A stretch of DNA of 64,000 nucleotides. Source: Desulfarculus sp. Its GTDB lineage: Bacteria; Desulfobacterota; Desulfarculia; Desulfarculales; Desulfarculaceae. Under the pieces are notes generated by a model that did no database searches, was not told the DNA's origin, and saw only the letters and a program-made list of their open reading frames with translations. Positions 9,542-17,533 of this stretch are shown piece after piece; position 1 is the first letter of the stretch, and each line of letters starts with the position of its first letter. Made by a program: the position numbers and the translations under genes. The stretch covers positions 26,961 to 90,960 of the forward strand of contig QZKP01000075.1 in the NCBI GenBank assembly GCA_003605055.1, read 5' to 3'.

Positions 9542-10990
9542 TCAGTTCAGGGAGTACCGCTCCATCTTGTTGTAGAGGGAGGAGCGGGATATGCCCAGCA
9601 TCTTGGCCGCCCGGCTCTTGTTGCCCCGGCAGAAGCTCAGGGCCCGCTTTATCAGCAGCACCTCGTCGTCGCTGAACTTGCGCTTCATGTCCAATTGCTC
9701 AGCGGCGTCGTCAGTCTGATCGGGATTGTTCAACCGGTTGAGGGAAGCGGCGGTGATGTGCCCGGGCAGCTCGTCGAGGTCTATGACATTGCCGTGCTGG
9801 GCCAGGCAGACCGCGCGATCCAGGGCGTTCTTTAGTTCGCGCACGTTGCCAGGCCAGGAATAGGTCATCAGGGCCCGCAAGGCCCGGTCGGTTATCTCCA
9901 CGGGGCGGGTGGAAATCTGTTTCAGGAAATGCTGGCTCAGGATCAGGATGTCTTCCCTTCTCTCCCGCAGGGGCGGGATGTGCAGGGTCAGGCCGGACAA
10001 ACGGAAGTACAGGTCCTGGCGAAATTTGCCCTCGTCCAGCAGAAAATCCATGTTCCGGTTGGTGGCCGCCACCAGCCGGAAATCCACCTCCTCGGGGATG
10101 ACGGCGCCCACCTTTTCCACCCTTTTTTCCTCCAGGACGCGCAGCAGCTTGGCCTGGGCGATCAGGGGCAGCTCGCCTATTTCGTCCAGGAAAAGGGTGC
10201 CGCCCCGGGCCATCTCGATCTTGCCGGTCTTGCCTTTGTTGTGGGCGCCGGTGAAGGCCCCGGCCGTATAGCCGAATAGCTCCGACTCCAGCAGCTCGCT
10301 GGGAATGGAGGCGCAGTTCAGGCAGACAAAGGGGCCGCGGCGGCCATTGCTGGCGTTATGTATGGAGTGGGCCAGCAGCTCCTTGCCGGTTCCGGTTTCC
10401 CCGGTGATTAAAATGGGGCTTTCGGCCTGGGCGTACCGGCGGGCCATGTCCTTGACGTGATTGAGGCCCTCGCTCACCCCCAGGATGTCCCGGAAGGTGT
10501 ATTTGGGCTTGAGCAGGTCCGACAACTGGGCCTTGTAGGTGTGGACCTTTTCCCTGAGCAGGTCCAGGCTGCGGGCCATGTCCTTGAGCTCGGATATGTC
10601 CCGGAAGATGCACTGGGTCAGGGCCCCGATCATCTTTTCGTCCCGCAAGATGGGGATGCGGTTCACCACCAGGGTTGTGCCGCCCGGGTAATGGTATTTC
10701 CAGCCCATCTCCGCCTTGCCGGTCTGGATGACCACGGGCAGGCGAGAGTCAGGGAAGTACTCGGTTATGTGCTTGCCGTAGGTGGCATCCCTGTCCACCC
10801 CGATCAACTCTTCGTACTGCTTGTTCATGAAGCGGATTATGCCTTCAGTATCCACGAATACCAGGCCCAGGTAGGCCTGATCCAGTATCAACTCCAGCGT
10901 GCTCAGAAAGTCGCGCAGCTCCCGGTAATCAGCCTTTTGATCAGGATTTAAGGACACCGCGCACATGCTCTTTTTACTCGGGGCCGCCAT
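9542..10990 (-). CDS. PAS domain sigma-54-dependent transcriptional activator
   Basis: PAS segment; [28 protein letters not shown], Fis-type HTH. Confidence 0.93.
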   Translation of the reverse strand: MAAPSKKSMCAVSLNPDQKADYRELRDFLSTLELILDQAYLGLVFVDTEGIIRFMNKQYEELIGVDRDATYGKHITEYFPDSRLPVVIQTGKAEMGWKYHYPGGTTLVVNRIPILRDEKMIGALTQCIFRDISELKDMARSLDLLREKVHTYKAQLSDLLKPKYTFRDILGVSEGLNHVKDMARRYAQAESPILITGETGTGKELLAHSIHNASNGRRGPFVCLNCASIPSELLESELFGYTAGAFTGAHNKGKTGKIEMARGGTLFLDEIGELPLIAQAKLLRVLEEKRVEKVGAVIPEEVDFRLVAATNRNMDFLLDEGKFRQDLYFRLSGLTLHIPPLRERREDILILSQHFLKQISTRPVEITDRALRALMTYSWPGNVRELKNALDRAVCLAQHGNVIDLDELPGHITAASLNRLNNPDQTDDAAEQLDMKRKFSDDEVLLIKRALSFCRGNKSRAAKMLGISRSSLYNKMERYSLN

Positions 10991-11245
10991 GATCGGTTAC
11001 CTCAAATACAGGCAGCCGGACCAAGCCGTTAACCGGACAACGCTTACTAAGCGCGAACCGATTTCCAGGAGCGCCTGGGAATCTCTAGGTTCGGCAAAAA
11101 CTATCAGATCGTAATTTCTAATAAAAATCAACTTGTATAGATACAATACACATATGGACCCCAAAATGTCCAAACAAAAGACAACTAGGTCGTTTGGTTT
11201 GAGTTGTTAACTCCCAACTAGCGGGTTTTAGATATAATTTTTCCG

Positions 11246-11261
11246 TGGCCTGGTTTTTGCT
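11246..11261 (+). promoter_or_regulatory. Sigma-54 -24/-12 promoter upstream of the AcnX operon
   Basis: TGGCCTGGTTTTTGCT, GG-N10-GC spacing; next to a sigma-54 activator gene. Confidence 0.75.
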
Positions 11262-11347
11262 AAAAATTATGACAGGTTCTTTGGTTATCATCAGGGAGCA
11301 CCGACCTGTATTTCATAGCCAGAAATTACCCCAAACCTTTCCCGGGG

Positions 11348-11401
11348 CCTGAAGACGGGCCGCGGGCGCGGCCGTTGGTACGTGACCAAATCTTCAGGAG
11401 G
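11348..11401 (+). promoter_or_regulatory. Three-way-junction leader overlapping the Shine-Dalgarno of the AcnX operon
   Basis: P1 CCTGAAGA/TCTTCAGG, P2 GGCCGC-GGGC-GCGGCC, P3 TTGGT-ACGTG-ACCAA; SD AGGAGG starts within the P1 3' strand. Confidence 0.6.
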
Positions 11402-11406
11402 TAGCC

Positions 11407-11844
11407 ATGGCGGCAAAGAAAGTTTTGAAAGGCATCACCCGCTCTAAAGGCCACGCGGCGGGAGAAGCCCTGGTCAGCGAACAGCCTCTGAGCTGGGCCC
11501 CTTTCACCATACCCAACGAAACCGGCATCATCAGCATCTTCGGGCACAAGCTCTCCGGCCAGAGCGTCAAGGACAAGATAGTGGTCTATCCCACGGTGAG
11601 CGGCTCCACCACGGGCTCCATCGGGCTTTTCTTCAAGGTCAAGGAATCCAAGGTCGGGCCCAAGGCCATCGTCTGCCGCCAGGTGCACCCCATAGACCTG
11701 GGCGGGGCCATCGCGGCCGAGATTCCGGCCGTGGACGGCCTGGACAAAGACCCCATCCAGGAGATCCAGACCGGAGATTGGGTCGAGATTCAGGCGGCGG
11801 AGGTGGGCCAGGAGGCCGTCGTCACCATCAGCCGCAAGGCATAG
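11407..11844 (+). CDS. Aconitase X swivel domain / small subunit (DUF126 family)
   Basis: GITRSKGHAAGEALVSEQPLSWAPF, VVYPTVSGSTTGSIGLF; directly precedes the catalytic subunit. Confidence 0.85.
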   Translation: MAAKKVLKGITRSKGHAAGEALVSEQPLSWAPFTIPNETGIISIFGHKLSGQSVKDKIVVYPTVSGSTTGSIGLFFKVKESKVGPKAIVCRQVHPIDLGGAIAAEIPAVDGLDKDPIQEIQTGDWVEIQAAEVGQEAVVTISRKA

Positions 11845-11892: not shown

Positions 11893-13218
11893 ATGAAACT
11901 GACCAGGCACGAGCAGGAGATGCTCGCTGGCAAGCAGGGCGAGGCCAAACGCGTCGCCATGGAGAAGCTGGTGGATTTCGGCGTGGCGGTGGGCGCGGAA
12001 GAGATGGCGACCCTGTCCAACGTGCACTACGGCACCTGTTTGATTATGCCGCGCTCCACGCCCGGATACTCCAAGTATGAGTTGGGGCAATCTTCGATAA
12101 TGAGGGAATTCATCGAAATGGGGGCCAAGGTCACCGACGATCCGAACTGCATCTGCTCCACGGACCCCCTGTTCCTGCAACTGGATAAGTACGAAGAGGA
12201 AGGCTATCCCTGGAACCATAAGCACTACAAGATGCCCAGGGTCATCTATGAGGCGGTGGTCAAGGGCTACGAGGAGTGCAAGAAGATGGGCATGGTGCTG
12301 CCCCAGTCCTGCACGCCGCACTTCAACACGGTCATCCCCAAGAAGGACGAATACGTGGTCTCGGTGGAGTCCAGCTACGCGGCCTACATCAACAGCATTC
12401 TGGGCGCTCGCGCCAACCGGGAGAACACCGTGACCCTGATCTACGCCGCGTTCACCGGCGTGCACCCCAAGTACGGCACCATGCTGGACGAGAACCGCCG
12501 CGCCCAGATGGTCTTTGAGCTCACCGACGAGGTCAGGGACAACCTGGTCTATTCGGCCGACTGGGCCGCCCTGGGCGCCGCCGTGGCCATGAAGGCCAAC
12601 AACCGGGTGCCGGCCATCCTCAACCTGCCCAAGCCCATGAGCAACGAGGGCGCCAAGCTTCTCACCGGCTGCGCCTCCCCGGGCATGAACGATCCCATGC
12701 TGCACTTCATCGGCATCAGTCCCGAGTCCCCCACCCTGGCGGCTGCCTTTGGCGGCAAGGTGCCCAAGGACGTGGAGCGCATCACCGTCACCTTGTCCGA
12801 CCTCAAGCAAATCTACCAGGCGCTCTGCTCGGCCAAGAGCGACAAGGTGGATATCGTCCACGTGGGCTGCCCCCACCTGACCTACTACGAGATACGCCAG
12901 ATCGCCAAGCTGATCGAGGGCCGCAAGGTCAGCGACAACGTTTACTTCTGGGTGCAGACCGACACCCCCACCTACTATATGGCCCATCACCACGGCGAGG
13001 CCCAGGTCATCGAGAAGGCCGGCGGCAAGATTTACCACTCCACCTGTTTCGGCCTGCTGCCCATACGCGACTGGGGCAATGACCTGAACATCGCCACCAA
13101 CAGCTTCAAGGGCGTCAAGCTCTTCGGCGGCCAGGGCCAGGGCTGGATGTTCGGGGCCATGCCCGATCTCATTAACGCGGCCGTGACCGGCAAGTTCGCC
13201 TCCACCCGCTGGTCCTAG
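11893..13218 (+). CDS. Aconitase X catalytic subunit (DUF521 family)
   Basis: LTRHEQEMLAGKQGEAKRVAMEKLVDFG; AcnX-like body; follows the swivel subunit. Confidence 0.88.
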   Translation: MKLTRHEQEMLAGKQGEAKRVAMEKLVDFGVAVGAEEMATLSNVHYGTCLIMPRSTPGYSKYELGQSSIMREFIEMGAKVTDDPNCICSTDPLFLQLDKYEEEGYPWNHKHYKMPRVIYEAVVKGYEECKKMGMVLPQSCTPHFNTVIPKKDEYVVSVESSYAAYINSILGARANRENTVTLIYAAFTGVHPKYGTMLDENRRAQMVFELTDEVRDNLVYSADWAALGAAVAMKANNRVPAILNLPKPMSNEGAKLLTGCASPGMNDPMLHFIGISPESPTLAAAFGGKVPKDVERITVTLSDLKQIYQALCSAKSDKVDIVHVGCPHLTYYEIRQIAKLIEGRKVSDNVYFWVQTDTPTYYMAHHHGEAQVIEKAGGKIYHSTCFGLLPIRDWGNDLNIATNSFKGVKLFGGQGQGWMFGAMPDLINAAVTGKFASTRWS

Positions 13219-13331
13219 GCGGCGAGGCGTAATATGGGCGGCCTCCCGGCGTGGTTCCCAGGCCAGGGCGCCCCGGGCCCCGCCGGGCGCGGGGACCGGA
13301 TTCACGGGGGAGTGCAGAGGAGGTTCAACCG

Positions 13332-14462
13332 ATGAAGGCTTTGGATACCTTGATCCAGTACGGCCAGAGCAACCCCAGCGCTGCGGTGCAAGAGTGGAAG
13401 GCCGCGGGCGGCAAGGTGCTGGGCTATTGGTGCTCCTACATCCCCATAGAGTTGATATACGCCGCCGGCGCGCTGCCCTACCGCGTGCGGGGCGCCGGAG
13501 CCACGGGCACGGACCAGGCCGATCACGACATGTCCCCGGTGTGCAACTGCTCCTTCCCCCGCGCCGTCCTGGACCTGGCCCACCGGGGGGTATATGACTT
13601 CCTGGACGGCATCATCGGCATGAACGAGTGCGACCACGGCCGCCGGGCCTTCGAGCTGTGGGTGGAGAGGCTGCACCCCCCGTACCATCACTTCGTTTAC
13701 GTCCCCCGCACCCGCAAACAGGCCTCTATAAGGCAGTATGCGGTGGAGCTGGAGAAGCTCAAGGCCAGCCTGGAGCAGCACCTGGGCACTGAGATCACGC
13801 CCCAGGCCCTGCAAGAGTCGGTGAGCCTGTGCAATGAAAACCGGGCCCTCTTGAAGCAACTGCAAGAGGTGTTTCAGGAGGACCACCCGCCCCTCACGGG
13901 CACCCAGCGCCACCACATAGTCAACGCCTCGGTGAGCATCCCGCCCGAGACCTTGAACAAGCTGCTGCGCGAGCTGCTGGCGGAGGTTAAGCAGATGCCC
14001 CGCCTGGACGGGCAGCGGGTGCGGGTCATGATCGCCGGCTGGGTGGGCGACGACACCCTGGTGCACCGGGCCATAGAGGATTCCGGCGGGCTGGTGGTGG
14101 TTGACAACTGCTGCTTCGGGGCCCGGTCTTATTGGGACCCGATCAACTTCGATCCCCTGGACCCCCTGGGCTCCCTGGCCCTGTCCTACCTGAGCCGGCT
14201 GGGCTGCCCGCGCATGTTCGCCACCTTCGGCGACCGCTTCGCCATGCTGGAGCAGGCGGCCCGGGACTACCGGGTGGACGGGATCGTGCACACCCGCTTG
14301 CAGTTCTGCGACCTGCACGGCCTGGAGAACGTTTTTTTGACCAGGCGCAAACAGCAACTGGAGGTCCCGGTCAGCGCCACCCTGGTGCTGGACTACATCG
14401 GACAGGACGAAGGCCGCGTCCGGACCCGCATGGAGGCATTTATCGAGCAACTGGGCAAGTAG
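13332..14462 (+). CDS. 2-hydroxyacyl-CoA dehydratase / benzoyl-CoA reductase family subunit
   Basis: GKVLGYWCSYIPIELIYAAGALPYRVRG; ORF track starts at 13251, ATG at 13332 with SD preferred. Confidence 0.85.
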   Translation: MKALDTLIQYGQSNPSAAVQEWKAAGGKVLGYWCSYIPIELIYAAGALPYRVRGAGATGTDQADHDMSPVCNCSFPRAVLDLAHRGVYDFLDGIIGMNECDHGRRAFELWVERLHPPYHHFVYVPRTRKQASIRQYAVELEKLKASLEQHLGTEITPQALQESVSLCNENRALLKQLQEVFQEDHPPLTGTQRHHIVNASVSIPPETLNKLLRELLAEVKQMPRLDGQRVRVMIAGWVGDDTLVHRAIEDSGGLVVVDNCCFGARSYWDPINFDPLDPLGSLALSYLSRLGCPRMFATFGDRFAMLEQAARDYRVDGIVHTRLQFCDLHGLENVFLTRRKQQLEVPVSATLVLDYIGQDEGRVRTRMEAFIEQLGK

Positions 14463-14492
14463 GCGCGTCGCTGCTTACCACAGGAGAGAGTG

Positions 14493-15827
14493 ATGCCTAA
14501 TCTCAAGGGATTTCAGTTCAAGACCTACGATTTTTCCAAGCGTCTGGACACCAAGGTCGATCTCATAGAGGTCATCAATAACACGGTGGCGAAGGCCTTC
14601 AGGAACCAGCCCGAGCCGGTGCGCTGGATTTTCGAACCCCTCCTGCAATACATAGACGAGCTCAACTACTGCCGGGAACACCCGGACAAGGTGGTGTACC
14701 GCCACTTCACCTTCGCGCCGGAAATGGTCTATGCCATGGACTGCGTGTCCTTCGTGCCCGAGGCGCTGACCTTCATCATGCCCACGGAGTATTTGTGCGC
14801 CCTGGTGGACGAGGGGCGGGAGATGGGCATGCCGGATCACTGGTGCGGGTTCCTGGGCGGGGTGCTGGCCCCCATAATGTACGGCCGCCTGCCCCAGCCC
14901 AAGGCCATCCTGCACTGCAACCAGCCCTGCGACAACAGCGTGGCCCAGGGCACGGTCTTGGCCGAAAGCTACCCGGACACGGAGATGTTCATACTGGACA
15001 ACCCCTACACCGACGACGAGGCGGGGGTGCAGTTCTGCGCCGAGCAGCTCCGGGAGGGCTTTAAATACCTGGAGCGCATGACCGGCCAGAAGCTGGACCT
15101 GGACCGGTTCCGGCAGGTGATGAAGAACTCGGCCCGGGCCTACGAGCTGATCTACCAGATCAACGAATACAAGAAGGCGGTTCCCTGCCCCATTCCCACC
15201 AGCGTCATCCTGCGCACCACCAGCGGGGCCTTTTACGGGCTCACGGGCACGGGGGGTCTGGTGCAGTGGCTGGAGAAGCACCTGGCCGACGCCAAGATGC
15301 GCTACGAGAAGGGCATCGGCGGCTTCCGCCAGGAAAAGCTGCGGGTGGTGTGGAACCTGTCCTGGCCGGTTTTCGATTACAGCGTGTACGATTGGATGGA
15401 GGAGGCCTTCGGCGCCATCGCCGTGGCCTACCACTCGGCGGAGCCGTTCTACCAGCCGCCGCCGGATTTAGATTACAGCAAGGCCTCCTTCGAGGTGCTG
15501 CTGCGCGAGCTGGCGCTACGCAACAACAACCACGCCATGGGCCGGCAGGGCCGCGGGCACATGATGACCTTCGTGGACGACTCGCTGAAGTGGTGCCGCG
15601 AGTTCAAGGCCGACGCCGGCATCTTCGCCGGCCACTGGCAGTGCCAGGCCAACTGGGCCGCGGCCCAGCTCACCAAGGAGAAGCTCATGGAGGAGCTGGG
15701 CATCCCCATGCTGGTGATGGTGGTGGACCAGTTGGACCCCCGCGTGGTCTCCGCCGAGCAGATGGCCTCGCGCATGGAGCCTTTCCTGGAGATGGTGACC
15801 GCCAAGAAGGAAGGTAGTGTCCAATAG
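14493..15827 (+). CDS. 2-hydroxyacyl-CoA dehydratase / benzoyl-CoA reductase family subunit
   Basis: LHCNQPCDNSVAQG, GIPMLVMVVDQLDPRVVSAEQMASRMEPFLEM; paired with the upstream subunit and an activase. Confidence 0.82.
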   Translation: MPNLKGFQFKTYDFSKRLDTKVDLIEVINNTVAKAFRNQPEPVRWIFEPLLQYIDELNYCREHPDKVVYRHFTFAPEMVYAMDCVSFVPEALTFIMPTEYLCALVDEGREMGMPDHWCGFLGGVLAPIMYGRLPQPKAILHCNQPCDNSVAQGTVLAESYPDTEMFILDNPYTDDEAGVQFCAEQLREGFKYLERMTGQKLDLDRFRQVMKNSARAYELIYQINEYKKAVPCPIPTSVILRTTSGAFYGLTGTGGLVQWLEKHLADAKMRYEKGIGGFRQEKLRVVWNLSWPVFDYSVYDWMEEAFGAIAVAYHSAEPFYQPPPDLDYSKASFEVLLRELALRNNNHAMGRQGRGHMMTFVDDSLKWCREFKADAGIFAGHWQCQANWAAAQLTKEKLMEELGIPMLVMVVDQLDPRVVSAEQMASRMEPFLEMVTAKKEGSVQ

Positions 15828-15912
15828 GGACAGGCCGGTTAGCGCCCTGGAGTATTGCTTAAGGCCGCCAGGCCGCGGGCGGCGTGGTTTGCGGAAAGGA
15901 CGTTGGGCGGGC

Positions 15913-16710
15913 ATGGCCATAGTGGCGGGATGCGACATCGGCTCGGTCTCCGGCAAGGCGGTCCTCTTTGACGGCCAGCGCATACTGGCCAGCGCGGTCA
16001 TACCCTCCCGGCCCCTGCCGGCCGTAACCGCGGAGGAGGTGCTGGGCCTGGCCGCCGGACAGGCCGGCGTGTCCCCCGGAGACATCGCCTACCTGGTGGG
16101 CACGGGCTACGGCCGGGTGAAGGTGCCGGGCGCCCAGAAAACAGTGTCGGAGATCACCTGCCACGCCCGGGGGGCGGCCTTTTACAACCGCGACGCGGCC
16201 ACCCTGATTGACGTGGGCGGGCAGGACTCCAAGGTCATCTCCCTGTCGCCGGAAGGCAGCGGCCAGGTCCTGGAATTCTCCATGAACGACAAGTGCGCGG
16301 CGGGCACCGGGCGCTTCCTGGAGGTGATGGCCAAGGTCTTTGAAATGCCCATCGAGCGCTTCGGGGGCGCGGCTCTGCGGGCCCGGCGCTGCCTGGCCAT
16401 CTCCAGCCAGTGCACCGTTTTCGCCGAAAGCGAAGTGGTCTGCCTCATCGGCCAGGAAAAGGACATGAACGAGATCATCGCCGGCATCTGCGACGCGGTG
16501 GCCGCGCGGGTGGCGACCCTGGTGGGCCGCGTCACCCTGCGGGAAAAGGTCTATATGTCCGGCGGGGTGGCCAAGAACCAGGGGGTGAGGCAGAGGCTGG
16601 AAAGCCGGCTCGGCGTCAAGATATGGGAGTTGGCCGGCGACCCTCTCATCGCCGGCGCCCTGGGGGCCGCCTTGATCGCCATGGACGCCCTCAACAAACA
16701 ACGTCCGTAA
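15913..16710 (+). CDS. Acyl-CoA dehydratase activase (BcrAD/BadFG/HgdC family)
   Basis: GCDIGSVSGKAVLFD, DVGGQDSKVISL, MNDKCAAGTGRFLEVMA, MSGGVAKNQGV. Confidence 0.93.
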   Translation: MAIVAGCDIGSVSGKAVLFDGQRILASAVIPSRPLPAVTAEEVLGLAAGQAGVSPGDIAYLVGTGYGRVKVPGAQKTVSEITCHARGAAFYNRDAATLIDVGGQDSKVISLSPEGSGQVLEFSMNDKCAAGTGRFLEVMAKVFEMPIERFGGAALRARRCLAISSQCTVFAESEVVCLIGQEKDMNEIIAGICDAVAARVATLVGRVTLREKVYMSGGVAKNQGVRQRLESRLGVKIWELAGDPLIAGALGAALIAMDALNKQRP

Positions 16711-16732
16711 GTCAGGCTGGCTGGAAGATGCA

Positions 16733-17533
16733 ATGACCGTATCAGAGGCGGAAGAAAACTTTTTCCCGGGGTGCAGGTTCCGGCTGGCGGTCACCGGCAA
16801 GGGCGGCGTGGGCAAGACCATCATCGCCGCCCTGATCGGACGCCGCCTCAAGGAACAAGGCAAGAGGGTCCTGCTGGTGGACGGGGACCCGGCCATGGGG
16901 CTGGCCTATGTCTTCGGCGCCGACACCAGCAAGACCATCGGCGGGTTCCGCGACCAGTTGCGCAAGAACCCAAAGTTGAAGCGGGAGGCCGAAACGGCCC
17001 CCATCAAGGAAATGCTGGTGCGGGAGGGCCTGATCCATCTGGATGAACAGACCAGCATGCTCATCATGGGCAAGGACGAGAGCGACGACTGCTTCTGCGG
17101 GGTCAACAGCCTGCTCAAATACGGAATCGGGAGCATCGCCAGGGACTATGAGGCCATGGTCATTGACTGCGAGGCAGGCCTGGAGCAGGTCAGGCGGCGG
17201 GTCCTCAACACGGTCAACGTCCTGCTGGTGGTATCGGATATGAGCGCCCGGGGCACCTGGACCGCCCGCCAGATAGCCGGGGTTCTCGCCCGCCAGGAAG
17301 CAGACGTGGTGTTGCCGGCAAGAGCCGGCTTGGTCATCAACCGGTACCAGGGGAATCAGGCTTTCCTGGGGCGGGCCCAAGAACAGACCGGCCTGGAGCT
17401 TCTGGCCGCGATCCCCGAGGATGGCTGGGTCTCCGAGTTGGACCTGAGCGGCAGAACCATCAACGAGCTGCCCGCCGAGGCCCCCAGCTATGCCAGCGTG
17501 CAGGCTATGCTGGAGCGGCTGCGGCTTTCTTAG
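16733..17533 (+). CDS. CooC/MinD-type P-loop ATPase
   Basis: Deviant Walker A GKGGVGKT; CFCG motif; VDGDPAMGLAYVFG. Confidence 0.85.
   Translation: MTVSEAEENFFPGCRFRLAVTGKGGVGKTIIAALIGRRLKEQGKRVLLVDGDPAMGLAYVFGADTSKTIGGFRDQLRKNPKLKREAETAPIKEMLVREGLIHLDEQTSMLIMGKDESDDCFCGVNSLLKYGIGSIARDYEAMVIDCEAGLEQVRRRVLNTVNVLLVVSDMSARGTWTARQIAGVLARQEADVVLPARAGLVINRYQGNQAFLGRAQEQTGLELLAAIPEDGWVSELDLSGRTINELPAEAPSYASVQAMLERLRLS

Follow-up and report, generated by a model that had tools for sequence, protein, structure and literature searches.

We studied the upstream region of an acnX operon within a window of 64,000 nucleotides, i.e., the whole stretch of DNA that was analysed, to which all positions refer. 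The promoter, the first two genes of the operon and the neighbouring regulator gene are located as follows.

9542-10990, minus strand: divergent regulator with PAS, sigma-54-activator and Fis-type HTH domains (PF00158, PF02954, PAS families)
11246-11261, plus strand: sigma-54 (-24/-12) promoter TGGCCTGGTTTTTGCT (pattern match, 0 mismatches)
11407-11844, plus strand: AcnX swivel (small) subunit, gene 1 of the operon (PF01989, E 6e-21)
11893-13218, plus strand: AcnX large subunit (PF04412, E 4.5e-96)

Further downstream, the operon encodes two 2-hydroxyacyl-CoA dehydratase subunits and their activase-type ATPase, followed by an ATPase that resembles CooC and a protein with a ferredoxin domain (the last two named from weak family matches and the sequence read by eye). 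The promoter shows the GG of the -24 and the GC of the -12 element at their fixed spacing with an activator gene nearby. Its geometry predicts a transcription start at about 11272. Sigma-54 elements also precede acnX in two relatives (G003 and G007) and a decayed acnX copy in G003. This supports the promoter; the sigma-54 start that the earlier note had placed at the 5' hairpin of the leader agrees with the +1 of about 11272.

The divergent regulator is the probable activator of the acnX promoter; in G007, the regulator is likewise divergent from acnX. Upstream of the promoter (11130-11185), the inverted repeats TTGTAT-AG-ATACAA and TGGAC-N8-GTCCA are found, and the words TGTACT, TGGAC, TGTCTA and GTCCA precede the sigma-54 promoters of G007, of G003 and of the G003 remnant. 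Judged by their sequence, these repeats and the related words are probable activator binding sites. On/off control of the operon is probably transcriptional, via sigma-54 and the divergent activator.

Between the predicted start site and the acnX start codon, the following elements can be read directly from the sequence.

11272-11309, plus strand: 5' hairpin ACAGGT (11272-11277) / ACCTGT (11304-11309)
11348-11355, plus strand: P1 5' strand CCTGAAGA (exact)
11358-11373, plus strand: P2 hairpin GGCCGC-GGGC-GCGGCC (exact)
11375-11389, plus strand: P3 hairpin TTGGT-ACGTG-ACCAA (exact)
11391-11398, plus strand: P1 3' strand TCTTCAGG, pairs with CCTGAAGA and contains the AGG of the Shine-Dalgarno sequence
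11396-11401, plus strand: Shine-Dalgarno sequence (SD) AGGAGG, 5-nt gap to the ATG at 11407

The arms that the earlier note had drawn as a compact three-way junction, as well as its 5' hairpin, are thus present letter for letter at the positions it had given. P1, P2 and P3 are perfectly paired by Watson-Crick base pairs only, and the count of unpaired junction bases (C11356, G11357, G11374 and A11390) confirms that there are almost none. Also as proposed, the SD begins within the P1 3' strand, which ends inside AGGAGG, 9 nt 5' of the acnX ATG. The proposed masking of the ribosome-binding site holds in part: the stem overlaps the SD, but only 3/6 of the SD bases lie within P1, and since the other three lie outside of it, masking by P1 is partial.

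We then assessed whether the fold exceeds chance expectation. In isolation, the 51-nt core (11348-11398) folds into the drawn three-way junction with -25.7 kcal/mol (z = -3.6), and none of 200 shuffled sequences was equally stable. Within 464 kb of its own genome, a perfect 8/6/5 Watson-Crick junction with no more than 5 bases between the helices is found at this locus only, and relaxing the scan to 7/5/5 adds one further place. These two results argue against a functionless fold that arose by chance from a short GC-rich segment (11340-11389 has 74% GC, while the remaining leader is AU-rich and the genome has 66% GC). P1 by itself is less unusual. A helix as strong as P1 at the same spot, i.e., overlapping the SD, is observed for 4.1% of the gene starts of the own genome (the background of each genome comprises about 145-237 gene starts), and an 8-bp inverted repeat occurs in 3.8% of shuffled leaders. 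The full window leader yields z = -1.07, and the relatives' leaders yield -0.54 and +0.95; therefore, the leaders as wholes are not clearly more structured than their shuffles.

The 5' hairpin is not special. It is stable on its own (-11.1), but a 6-bp inverted repeat like that of the hairpin is held by 46% of shuffled leaders, and its probability within the longer leader is only about 0.01-0.05, as other pairings displace it. No counterpart was seen in the relatives G003 and G007.

The predicted structure depends on how much of the transcript is considered. For 11340-11415, the MFE structure is not the junction (-27.0 kcal/mol) but a rival fold (-36.7 kcal/mol), referred to as fold B, with two main elements.

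11341-11366, plus strand: fold B hairpin CCCG.GGCCTG-AAGA-CGGGCC.CGGG (MFE of 11340-11415), which uses the P1 and P2 5' strands
11371-11411, plus strand: fold B pairing of GCCGT (11371-11375) with ATGGC (11407-11411), predicted to mask the start codon

For transcripts starting at 11272, the predicted P1 probability is 0.94-0.99 if they end between 11398 and 11409, 0.35 if they end at 11412, and about 0.01-0.05 if they end at 11415 or beyond. P1 is predicted to lose its dominance past about 11409 because fold B claims its 5' strand along with that of P2 and pairs the AUG, whose bases are then predicted to be unpaired with a probability of ~0.01-0.11 (transcripts from 11272 to 11415 or beyond). 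A transcript starting at 11345 retains the junction (predicted P1 probability of 0.996), since fold B requires the upstream CCCG. That is, two mutually exclusive folds are predicted, of which the junction would touch the SD and fold B would mask the AUG; the competition between them is computed from energy parameters only.

Among the genomes searched, only two acnX orthologues with at least 75% identity were found, namely those of G003 and G007, both from the same genus; the next-nearest orthologue has 52% identity and a different gene context. The three orthologous leaders, all from this one genus, share no sequence block downstream of the promoter. An alignment of these short leaders by MAFFT did not place the stems, such that we replaced the counting of covariation by gene-start backgrounds and shuffles. 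At the position of P1, a stem is found in both relatives, i.e., CCGGCACC/GGCGCCGG in G007 (one mismatch, loop of 26) and TTTCTATT/AATAGAAG in G003 (one G-U pair, loop of 30). The loop of P1 in the window measures 35, and its stem sequence is unlike those of G003 and G007. Relative to the gene starts of the respective own genome, the stems rank at 0.021 (G007), 0.23 (G003) and 0.041 (window). The probability that a random pair of gene starts matches the stems of G003 and G007 is p = 0.016, and p = 0.002 applies to a random trio matching all three stems. Shuffling only the upstream part gives p = 0.12 for G007, p = 0.04 for G003 and p = 0.001 for the window. These p-values are lenient because the geometry was picked after the stems had been seen, and they support a recurring stem only weakly; with a relaxed stem geometry, p = 0.28 results for each of the two relatives.

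The region enclosed by the stem is unfolded in G007 (MFE of 0) and forms only two 3-bp stems in G003. P2 and P3 are thus absent or negligible in the relatives and the three-way junction is not conserved. The structural conservation on which the earlier note had made its reading depend therefore fails for the junction in both G003 and G007. Both inner arms are specific to this species, and at most the SD-proximal stem is common to the relatives.

A degree of complementarity to the SD is seen for the more distant acnX genes of G329 and G270, whose gene neighbourhoods differ from that of the window (p of 0.003-0.02, with the G270 start taken one base off the ATG). Searches of the orders of G329 and G270 returned no more usable orthologues. 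In G270 (L037:7507-7555), TTTCTCCTC lies opposite GAGGAGAGG at the SD of the distant acnX gene; by its sequence, this is a possible strong SD-masking stem.

A search against Rfam 15 returned no match at gathering scores for the window leader or those of the relatives, and the permissive mode gave chance-level hits only. None of the literature searched describes a leader RNA of acnX. The best-known junction among the three-way-junction translational riboswitches is that of the purine class. The leader resembles this group in that three helices meet at a tight junction close to the site of initiation. It differs in that its four unpaired junction bases come without the conserved junction and loop nucleotides of an aptamer, in the missing Rfam match and in arms that are not kept in relatives. 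A likeness also exists to leader hairpins that occlude the SD, given that the 3' strand of the stem holds part of the SD and ends 9 nt before the start codon. Compared to such hairpins, P1 pairs no more than half of the SD, and the remaining shape is not conserved.

Two further candidates were rejected. The hammerhead core consists of CUGANGA and GAAA around three stems; CUGAAGA at 11349-11355 fits the first half within a three-way junction, but no GAAA follows the subsequent stem, the core bases are part of a helix and there is no Rfam match. A 27-codon leader ORF (ATG at 11269, TGA at 11350-11352, by eye) has neither an SD nor a counterpart in the relatives. It opens with an ATG that lies 3 nt before the predicted transcription start and closes with a TGA within the 5' strand of P1; judging from the sequence, it is probably a chance ORF.

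Given these data, we consider a species-specific structured 5' UTR of a sigma-54-driven operon, with local structure near its 3' end and a passive tuning effect, to be the best explanation, to which we give about an even chance. Here, the ~135-nt 5' UTR of the acnX operon would fold locally near its 3' end. In the emerging RNA, P1, P2 and P3 would form first, with P1 pairing the 5' half of the SD. After the first codons have been transcribed, competition would come from the GC-rich rival fold, in which the start codon is paired. Either fold would lower and set the rate at which translation of the AcnX small subunit is initiated. Passive tuning without a ligand is the probable outcome, where the structure may act as a brake or may insulate the initiation site from the AU-rich RNA further upstream. 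The sequence, the predicted folds, the conserved promoter and the lack of conserved arms are shown, while the transcription start, in-cell folding and an influence on translation are inferred, and the effect of the stem on translation may be nil. Since the relatives keep a simple stem at most, ordinary local tuning is favoured over a demonstrated riboswitch.

A close second to passive tuning is a junction that has arisen by chance and is without function, i.e., an unselected fold that is melted by the ribosome. We regard this as a serious, albeit the less probable, possibility. It would account for the lack of conservation of P2 and P3, for the full-leader z of only -1.07, for the share of gene starts with an equally strong SD-overlapping helix, for the success of competing folds in longer contexts and for the abundance of P2-like words in the genome. 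It is at odds with the uniqueness of the compact perfect junction, with the core z-score and with the stem that recurs at the corresponding place in G003 and G007.

A regulated translational switch that senses a metabolite or protein, in which a signal of the AcnX pathway picks either the junction, which would cover half of the SD and leave the AUG free, or fold B with its masked AUG, appears unlikely. The two folds share strands, are mutually exclusive and emerge in an order that favours the junction first, and acnX is the first gene of a catabolic operon, which is all consistent with such a switch. However, an aptamer is expected to be the most conserved part, while the leaders of three species of the same genus share no conserved nucleotides; P2 and P3 are missing in the relatives, Rfam gives no match, rival folds are easily found in GC-rich RNA, and with the divergent sigma-54 activator a plausible transcriptional switch is already present. 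We rate as slightly more improbable still a lineage-specific variant, where the two exclusive folds would respond to a metabolite or protein of the aconitase-X pathway, compensatory changes would keep the SD-proximal stem and the arms would evolve freely. From the riboswitch or protein-binding leader suggested in the earlier note, what remains is a structured leader whose stem overlaps the SD; conserved sequence or shape and an Rfam match are missing, and the junction is predicted to lose to fold B once the first codons are included.

A REP-like small palindromic repeat that landed in the leader is very improbable. The GC-rich nested palindrome within an AU-rich intergenic region would fit, but at the sensitivity of the search the element is a single copy, with no further DNA copies in the own genome or the genus (other matches are short and at chance level). 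The 17-mer of P2 occurs exactly twice and about 270 times with at most 2 mismatches in the genome, and all inspected near-copies (19/19) are located within long open frames. P2 is therefore rejected as a repeat family and reflects GC-rich words in open frames. Most remote is CsrA as a post-transcriptional regulator that would bind the SD at its GGA, next to the stem: GGA motifs are present at about 11295-11297 and 11397-11399, but CsrA (PF02599) was not found in G000, G003 and G007 (assemblies 82-96% complete) by a search that detects the E. coli, B. subtilis and T. maritima copies.

If it is true that P1 sets acnX translation, passive tuning would add a post-transcriptional layer to a sigma-54-controlled anaerobic catabolic operon. 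As matters stand, the acnX leader is one more structured leader, and since the junction is not conserved, a riboswitch search at this locus is unwarranted on present data.

The relatives also differ in the arrangement of the operon. G003 (L035:6601-7153) has a second sigma-54 promoter, AGGCACGAAATTTGCT, divergent from its sigma-54 regulator and with upstream words as in G007, which is followed by a decayed acnX, i.e., pieces of the large subunit, with the ferredoxin gene after it. About 8 kb from the decayed acnX, beside 3HCDH, G003 has its intact acnX-dehydratase operon. By its sequence, this arrangement suggests that a second copy of the operon is replacing an older acnX-ferredoxin locus. 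In G007 (L034), acnX is directly followed by the ferredoxin gene and the dehydratase/activase/CooC cassette is absent, whereas the cassette is placed between acnX and ferredoxin in both the window (13251-17533) and G003; the difference seems to reflect a later insertion, or a loss. In G329 (L036, 6062-10700), a 52%-identical AcnX pair adjoins an 837-aa protein that, by eye, reads like a glycyl radical enzyme, which would make it a further dehydratase of the radical type to partner split AcnX in a bacterium.
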